From the NCBI GenBank assembly GCA_021813585.1, contig JAKAJV010000061.1, forward strand, positions 1 to 35,293: a DNA stretch of 35,293 nucleotides, in the 5' to 3' direction. Under the pieces are notes generated by a model that saw nothing but the letters and a program-made list of their open reading frames with translations, had not been told where the DNA came from and did not search any database. Position 1 is the stretch's first letter; every line of letters starts with the position of its first letter. Positions 1-27,929 of this stretch are shown here, in pieces. The position numbers and the translations under genes were made by a program. The stretch comes from Bacteroidota bacterium (GTDB taxonomy: Bacteria; Bacteroidota; Ignavibacteria; Ignavibacteriales; Ignavibacteriaceae).

Positions 1-129
1 ATACATTTTGATGTCCGCATTGTCATTCCCACGAAAGTGGGAATCCATTTTTTATCATATTTTCGCATCTTGGATACCCGCTTTCGCGGGTATGACACTC
101 AAGCTTTATAATTTTGCGTAACATGAGCT
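1..129 (-). repeat. 147-bp MITE-like dispersed repeat, copy 1 (cut by window edge)
   Basis: This is the reverse-complement orientation of the repeat at 15999-16145 and 27712-27858. The visible 129 bp match the other copies except for one base in the terminal repeat (GAGCT instead of GAGTT at 125-129). About 18 bp of the far end lie outside the window. It contains both internal palindromes, ATTCCCAC..GTGGGAAT first and ATACCCGC..GCGGGTAT second in this orientation. It ends 85 bp before the start of the acyltransferase-like gene. No coding sequence is present. Confidence 0.9.
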
Positions 130-15961: not shown

Positions 15962-15998
15962 GAGCTAGAAAATTAATAACTCATGCTGTATTGTTATT

Positions 15999-16145
15999 AA
16001 CTCATGTTACGCAAAATTATAAAGCTTGAGTGTCATACCCGCGAAAGCGGGTATCCAAGATGCGAAAATATGATAAAAAATGGATTCCCACTTTCGTGGG
16101 AATGACAATGCGGACATCAAAATGTATTCCTGCGTAACATGAGTT
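15999..16145 (+). mobile_element. 147-bp MITE-like dispersed repeat, copy 2
   Basis: The element has 15-bp perfect terminal inverted repeats (AACTCATGTTACGCA and TGCGTAACATGAGTT). A possible 3-bp ATT target duplication flanks it (15996-15998 and 16146-16148). It has no ORF. Inside are two palindromes, ATACCCGC-GAAA-GCGGGTAT (16035-16054) and ATTCCCAC-TTTC-GTGGGAAT (16084-16103), lying in inverted orientation to each other inside 27-bp units at 16031-16057 and 16081-16107. It is identical to copy 3 (27712-27858) except for one terminal base. It sits in the gap between convergent lptB and the esterase gene and could also act in transcription termination there. Confidence 0.85.
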
Positions 16146-16160
16146 ATTAAGATAAAGTAG

Positions 16161-16206
16161 TGGAGTAATGGAGTAGTGGAATTTACTCCATTATTCCATT
16201 ACTCCA
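16161..16206. terminator. 20-bp hairpin of GGAGTAATGG repeats, possible bidirectional terminator
   Basis: Left arm 16161-16180 and right arm 16187-16206 pair over 20 positions, with two G-T wobbles and a 6-base loop. The arms are built from degenerate TGGAGTAA units. It lies between convergent genes (lptB and the esterase), where a two-way terminator is expected, but there is no clean T-run right after either arm, so the function is only suggested. Confidence 0.45.
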
Positions 16207-16268
16207 ACACTCCAAAGTTTATTTTTGTATTGGACGACTAAATAAAATTTAATCTCAAACTATGTTTT

Positions 16269-27626: not shown

Positions 27627-27711
27627 ATCCACGATTTAATCAAATCAGCCAAAGCCGGACTTTTAATTTAGAGCATTCAGCTTTACAACCGGAAATAAAT
27701 TCTACCTTTAT

Positions 27712-27858
27712 AACTCATGTTACGCAAAATTATAAAGCTTGAGTGTCATACCCGCGAAAGCGGGTATCCAAGATGCGAAAATATGATAAAAAATGGATTC
27801 CCACTTTCGTGGGAATGACAATGCGGACATCAAAATGTATTCCTGCGTAATATGAGTT
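27712..27858 (+). mobile_element. 147-bp MITE-like dispersed repeat, copy 3
   Basis: Same orientation, length and sequence as copy 2 except for one C-to-T change in the right terminal repeat (TGCGTAATATGAGTT). A TAT triplet flanks both sides (27709-27711 and 27859-27861), a possible 3-bp target duplication. It ends 71 bp before the start of the next gene, so it could influence that gene's promoter. Confidence 0.88.
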
Positions 27859-27929
27859 TATAAATTATGCTGCAATTCCTTTTTAGAAATTTTATTGTTA
27901 TGTTAACATATATATCGATTTAAGGTTAT

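Follow-up and report, generated by a model that had tools for sequence, protein, structure and literature searches.

Introduction

REPINs and their RAYTs are marked by a GTAG tag and an HUH transposase. The CGTC-1 REPs, among them dRS3 of Neisseria, have been described mostly as head-head dimers, and the same survey, in the parts used here, treats CGTC-tagged REPs as apparently without a transposase of their own and leaves it to future work whether a RAYT or some other mover carries them (PMC3733652). CGTC repeats have already been recorded in Bacteroidetes. In H. neapolitanus, CGTC-1 dimers lie inside 41-bp palindromes (PMC3733652), and dRS3 has been given as ATTCCC(N8)GGGAAT (PMC3898611). 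A REP-bearing MITE is known from Coxiella burnetii, where QMITE2 is 150 to 190 bp long, is flanked by 7- to 11-nt duplications, and carries a REP of the GTAG type (PMC5896051). The IS701 family of insertion sequences (IS) has been described with 4-bp duplications and usually without the tyrosine of the YREK signature, and the ISPepr1 subgroup of IS4 with duplications of 7 to 8 bp, a conserved YREK, and lengths of 1500 to 1600 bp (PMC2266710). The published descriptions given here and below are taken from excerpts of the papers cited.

The stretch of DNA analyzed here, called the window, is the entire contig JAKAJV010000061.1 (C20; positions 1 to 35,293, forward strand) of a draft genome of 142 contigs and 4.54 Mb, assembly GCA_021813585.1, from a Bacteroidota bacterium of the Ignavibacteriaceae. 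An earlier sequence-only reading had proposed that the window holds three copies of a recently active MITE, and we followed up that proposal in the whole genome, in congeneric genomes and across the class.

Results

Boundaries, copy number and target duplications

Three near-identical copies had been claimed for the window, and both direct reading of the sequence and a repeat search bore this out. Copies 2 and 3 were recovered as direct repeats of 153 nt with 98% identity, and inverted matches of 99% joined positions 1 to 131 to copy 3 and positions 1 to 130 to copy 2. The unit of 147 bp proposed for the element has to be shortened: the element stands, with a length of 143 bp (CTCATGTTACGCA…TGCGTAACATGAG) and ends of 13 bp (CTCATGTTACGCA), and the AA and TT formerly counted as its outermost letters are part of the target duplication. 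Because these terminal letters are duplicated target, some of the terminal base changes between copies lie in the target, not in the element. From the sequence and the alignment of its flanks, copy 2 is complete at 16001..16143 on the plus strand (143 bp). End-pattern search and the sequence place its left terminal inverted repeat CTCATGTTACGCA at 16001..16013 on the plus strand and the right one at 16131..16143, where CTCATGTTACGCA is read on the minus strand. Flank alignment showed copy 2 between two copies of TTATTAA (15994..16000 and 16144..16150) and copy 3, which is complete at 27714..27856 on the plus strand with one base changed in its right terminal repeat, between two copies of TTTATAA (27707..27713 and 27857..27863). 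The 3-bp direct repeats suggested earlier (ATT and TAT) thus give way to a real duplication of 7 to 8 bp. Copy 1, delimited from the sequence and the repeat search, occupies 1..127 on the minus strand; it is truncated where the contig ends within the repeat, a kind of assembly break seen at many other contig edges as well. No ORF of at least 80 amino acids lies within copy 2 or copy 3, in keeping with the description of the element as gene-less. Two further features border copy 2. An inverted repeat of the GGAGTAATGGA ... TCCATTACTCC type adjoins it at 16156-16211 without TTACGCA ends, and related sequence forms the interior of other MITEs in the same genome (L201, L207). Just upstream, at 15973-15988, TTAATAACTCATG resembles the target plus the first six bases of the MITE end and is possibly a MITE remnant, or a chance likeness.

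The high genome-wide copy number that had been predicted was found. With up to 3 mismatches, the MITE core pattern gave 96 matches (45 + 51) in the 4.54-Mb genome and none for the reversed control. Fifty-five of these are contig-interior, and 41 lie near a contig edge, 2 of them complete and 39 as edge pieces. The copy number is about 77 to 96, the lower figure holding if every two edge pieces belong to one copy and the upper if none pair. With at most 2 mismatches allowed, the end pattern matched 89 + 99 times, against 4 + 1 times for its control. Boundary alignment of 60 distinct copies with both flanks also yielded the consistent duplication expected of a MITE: exact target duplications of 7 bp at 42 copies and of 8 bp at 5, with the remaining 13 off by one base (8 copies) or by two to five (5 copies). 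When flanks were paired at random in 2000 permutations, exact 7-bp matches averaged 7.2 and never exceeded 15, against the 42 observed. The target consensus is TTANTAA, the left-flank letters in the 60 copies being T in 59, T in 45, A in 55, any base, T in 58, A in 46, and A in 59. Eleven of the 60 copies, copy 2 among them, are identical across all 143 bases and most others differ at 1 to 3, and this upholds the proposal of recent activity. In one stretch (L208, G000:C13:37400-38098, bases 74-431), two different MITEs lie head to tail, the second starting within the target duplication of the first.

A candidate insertion sequence from the same genus

A metagenome-assembled genome of a congener (G006) holds an IS of 1,074 bp with ends CTGAAGTTACGCAAA, a transposase of 337 amino acids, and a 7-bp duplication, TAAATAA. 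The transposase matches Pfam DDE_Tnp_1 (2.8e-18) and the NCBIfam model transpos_IS701_2 (1.2e-54; 185.9 bits against a curated cut-off of 250) and has a complete Y-2-R-3-E-6-K signature at residue 255. The IS end, CTGAAGTTACGCA, shares 11 of 13 letters with the MITE end and differs at positions 3 and 5. Protein matches to this transposase were found in 6 of the 17 genomes searched; a contig scan with it confirmed 1 of 35 stretches, at 100% identity, which we take to be G006 itself. A second IS, in another genome (G003), has the CTGAAG end type and a transposase that is 28% identical to the first, carries its YREK tyrosine at residue 272, and passes the transpos_IS701_2 cut-off (328.8 against 250); its flanks showed no clean duplication.

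The source genome contains end pieces of such an IS at the edges of four contigs (C34, C139, C59, and C82), each joined to an CTGAAGTTACGCAAA end. The last 37 to 38 residues of the transposase appear at three contig edges and the first 24 at one. The three C-terminal pieces have different flanks, and therefore at least three copies of the IS must be present, none of them assembled whole. A profile search of this genome with PF01609 gave no match, probably because the assembly contains no more of the IS than its end pieces. The transposase that had been postulated elsewhere in the genome is thus partly accounted for, by an IS in the genus that shares the end type and the length of the duplication and by four of its ends here, none belonging to a complete copy. 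The full transposon with the exact AACTCATGTTACGCA end that had been anticipated did not appear in the source genome in an exact-pattern search that skipped the MITE; the nearest IS end differs at 2 of 13 letters.

Two units in the source genome link the IS to the MITE. One, 143 bp long (L202), carries the same kind of cargo between two CTGAAG ends and has a duplication of 8 bp; the other (L165) has one CTGAAG-type and one MITE-type end, also with an 8-bp duplication. Mixed ends occur in two more copies (L157 and L050), and one copy has CTCAAG-like ends (L148). Beyond the terminal repeat, the right arm of the MITE aligns to the right end of the IS better than 2000 of 2000 shuffles. The left arm reaches a p value of 0.027 as one of four arm comparisons, and the two crossed comparisons were not significant. 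From these sequence comparisons, the burst of MITE copies may descend from a unit with IS-type ends that later changed at two positions. The MITE was very probably moved by the enzyme of another element. We think it unlikely that this enzyme was a different, unseen transposase with IS ends CTCATGTTACGCA of its own, the CTGAAG-ended IS being only a cousin. The two changed positions in the MITE end would suit such an enzyme, as would the second transposase lineage with CTGAAG ends in G003 and the variant ends on both sides of single copies (CTCACC in L151), as if different enzymes used different ends. Against it, the exact-pattern search that skipped the MITE found no CTCATGTTACGCA-type end pair around a transposase in the source genome, only CTGAAG IS-type ends, and L165 unites both types in one element. 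Both ends of one MITE copy sometimes change together, L151 being an example.

A REP dimer, and other cargo, between the same ends

Compared with the CGTC-1 description, the interior of the MITE contains two REP units in opposite orientation with tags facing outward. The first, at 16031..16057 on the plus strand, has a TGTC tag, an 8-bp stem (ATACCCGC/GCGGGTAT), a GAAA loop, and a CCA tail; the second, at 16081..16107 on the minus strand, has a TGTC tag, the stem ATTCCCAC/GTGGGAAT, a GAAA loop, and a CCA tail. Each feature of the published type is present, namely, a CGTC/TGTC tag, an 8-bp stem, a 4-base loop, a CCA tail, and outward tags, and the second arm also fits ATTCCC(N8)GGGAAT. By its sequence, then, the interior matches what has been published on CGTC-1 (dRS3-type) REP head-head dimers. 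A search of the source genome with the REP pattern, allowing up to 3 mismatches, gave 209 matches. Of these arms 100 were listed, and every one falls within the MITE or a piece of it at a contig edge: 93 adjoin the MITE core, and the other 7 either belong to two additional MITE copies (C13, C16) or adjoin a MITE end where a contig begins (C19, C38). In 64 distinct REP contexts, both ends were present in 47, one end in 3, and neither in 5 (4 loci), the rest being near an edge. At four loci of relatives (L076-L079), the dimer is present without these ends. In L078 (about bases 1465-1610), the dimer sits within a different long inverted repeat, of the AAAGAGGCTGTCTCATAAGTC type, which is perhaps a second chassis.

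Many other sequences are likewise bounded by TTACGCA-type ends and matching duplications, both in the source genome and in its relatives. When the count was confined to exact duplications and to distinct places, 80 places in the fetched loci gave 13 interior clusters that share no blastn similarity with one another (E below 1e-3); the REP-dimer cargo accounts for 54 places, and one cluster (L176) is a tandem MITE pair. Folding z-scores below -3 were obtained for 10 of the 13 clusters and for 1 of 25 length-matched flank controls, which are often coding and not matched intergenic DNA. A looser run, which admitted duplications of 6 of 7 and counted repeat-fetched places, gave 134 pairs in 17 clusters, 6 of them represented by 6-of-7 pairs, with 13 of 17 below -3 against 1 of 33 controls. 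Nine of those clusters came from class-wide loci fetched by the end pattern alone, and 6 of the 9 were below -3. The 29 class-wide loci fetched in this way comprised 12 with an exact duplication, 5 with 6 of 7, and 12 with none, several of which are cut by contig ends. Across the class, 82 of 391 genomes, the source genome among them, contain the 15-base end CTSAWGTTACGCAAA, against control matches in 6 genomes, and the presence of a MITE was checked only at the 29 fetched loci; matches to the end span 17 of 31 family labels, some of these with a single match that may be due to chance. One chassis, then, carries unrelated hairpin repeats. Another unit, 43 bp long, has both ends but lacks a hairpin (L206, G000:C106:29700-30200, bases 271-313), and its flanks match at 6 of 7 positions. 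It consists of the two arms of a 113-bp MITE type (L204, L208) whose hairpin lies between two TCTG words, and it is either an unloaded chassis or the result of a deletion between short repeats.

These interiors bear on the idea that the REP dimer is itself what moves, by means of a RAYT or some other enzyme that acts on hairpins, and that the outer ends are a host palindrome it entered. REP dimers inside palindromes are known from A. variabilis and H. neapolitanus (PMC3733652), and the end-free dimers of the four relatives would agree with such a history. We nevertheless judge it highly improbable: it is the outer ends, and not the dimer, that the duplications adjoin; the same outer ends enclose unrelated interiors; every one of the 100 listed REP arms (of 209) lies in the MITE; and the tag is TGTC, not GTAG.

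Siting between genes and the junction at copy 2

Thirty loci were taken and the element was located in 29, in each of them between ORFs as judged by simple ORF calls. The neighboring ORFs are tandem in 22 cases, convergent in 5, and divergent in 1, and the remaining copy is flanked by an ORF on one side only. In 3 of the 29, an ORF of 101 to 205 amino acids might span the site without the element. Copy 2 sits in a convergent lptB-esterase pair with a gap of 307 bp. Among the 12 congeneric genomes searched, 6 show the pair; in the remaining ones, the fetched stretch lacks the esterase, the locus is cut, or only a paralogue is present. The gap measures 1 bp in G001, 40 bp in G008, 26 bp in G005, and 20 bp in G009, and it is 216 bp with a different hairpin in G006 and 499 bp in G004. 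For copy 3, a search with its flank led to a single usable relative, G004. The MITE is therefore absent from this junction in 4 of the 6 congeners, at the level of the gene junction and not as a base-exact empty site. At the G006 junction (L126, bases 1418-1454), the hairpin resembles what the 115-bp MITE of that genome encloses but lacks the ends. The MITE reading itself is sustained by the duplications, the copy number, the intergenic siting, and these congeneric junctions without room for the element. Still less credible than a mobile REP dimer is a regulatory hairpin or terminator that selection retains at its sites and that was mobile only in the past, which the strong fold of the MITE (z -8.4 as DNA), the orientation of the neighboring genes (22 of 29 tandem, 5 convergent), and the 10 hairpin-rich clusters of 13 would suit, but no Rfam family reached its gathering threshold in the window, and the duplications, the near-identity at unrelated loci, and the congeners without the MITE at the copy 2 junction point to recent insertion. 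The MITE may have a side effect on nearby RNA.

Discussion

We regard it as probable that the element is a 143-bp MITE whose 13-bp ends are recognized in trans by a DDE transposase of the IS4/IS701 group, with insertion at TTANTAA and a REP dimer as passenger. The enzyme would insert the MITE with a stagger of 7 to 8 bp, mostly between genes, presumably by cut-and-paste transposition, and the transposase of the candidate IS would be the one that acts. The CGTC-1 REP dimer, which is free of these ends in some relatives, may have come between them as a passenger and then been amplified together with them. The family is recently active; its mechanism is ordinary and its freight unusual. A bolder suggestion, which we advance only tentatively, is that the TTACGCA-core end type with its TTA-rich duplication of 7 to 8 bp could be a class-wide chassis for unrelated palindromic repeats and the missing vehicle of CGTC/dRS3-type REP dimers in these bacteria, with hairpins favored for a mechanistic or host-tolerance reason. 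It is this chassis, rather than the three copies in the window, that merits attention: one end type with many mostly hairpin-forming interiors bears on why MITE families share their ends and not their insides. There is also a practical side, since the MITE repeat breaks the assembly of its own genome at many contig edges.

The candidate IS is IS4/IS701-like and is filed in neither family. It resembles the ISPepr1 subgroup of IS4 in its 7- to 8-bp duplication, its complete YREK, and its ends, which have 7 of the 8 letters of the consensus YT-AA-YTT---A (a chance of 0.004 for random 13-mers), but it is 1,074 bp long rather than 1500 to 1600 bp, and its best NCBIfam model is instead IS701_2. Its likeness to IS701 is that transpos_IS701_2 is the best-scoring model for both transposases, from G006 and G003, whereas IS701 makes 4-bp duplications and usually has no YREK tyrosine and the candidate makes a 7-bp duplication and has the tyrosine. 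The model in question, NF049921, here scores best for transposases of elements with 7- to 8-bp duplications and YREK, unlike IS701 as characterized in the excerpts of PMC2266710.

In the open-access literature searched, itself seen in part, we met no example of a duplication-flanked MITE that encloses a CGTC dimer and has a matching IS, and none of a single end type shared by so many unrelated hairpin interiors. QMITE2 is similar in being a REP-containing MITE with target duplications, which occupies intergenic and 3' regions. It carries a GTAG-type REP, whereas the present MITE holds a CGTC-1-type dimer, can be paired with a candidate IS, and shares its ends with many other interiors. REPINs likewise combine two inverted REPs into one hairpin-rich multicopy unit, but they have the GTAG tag and an HUH transposase, in contrast to the TGTC tag, outer terminal inverted repeats, and target duplications of the MITE. 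A gonococcal stretch in the excerpted text of PMC7593972 shares its layout with the MITE interior, and the second arm is identical. Most dRS3 copies in Neisseria lie in large clusters (PMC3733652), unlike the dimers here. With CGTC-1/dRS3 repeats in general, the interior shares the TGTC/CGTC tag, the 8-bp stem starting with AT, the 4-base loop, the CCA tail, and the head-head arrangement. Those repeats have been described without a transposase; here a MITE with target duplications encloses the dimer and a candidate transposase is available, which makes the question of the mover directly testable in one clade.
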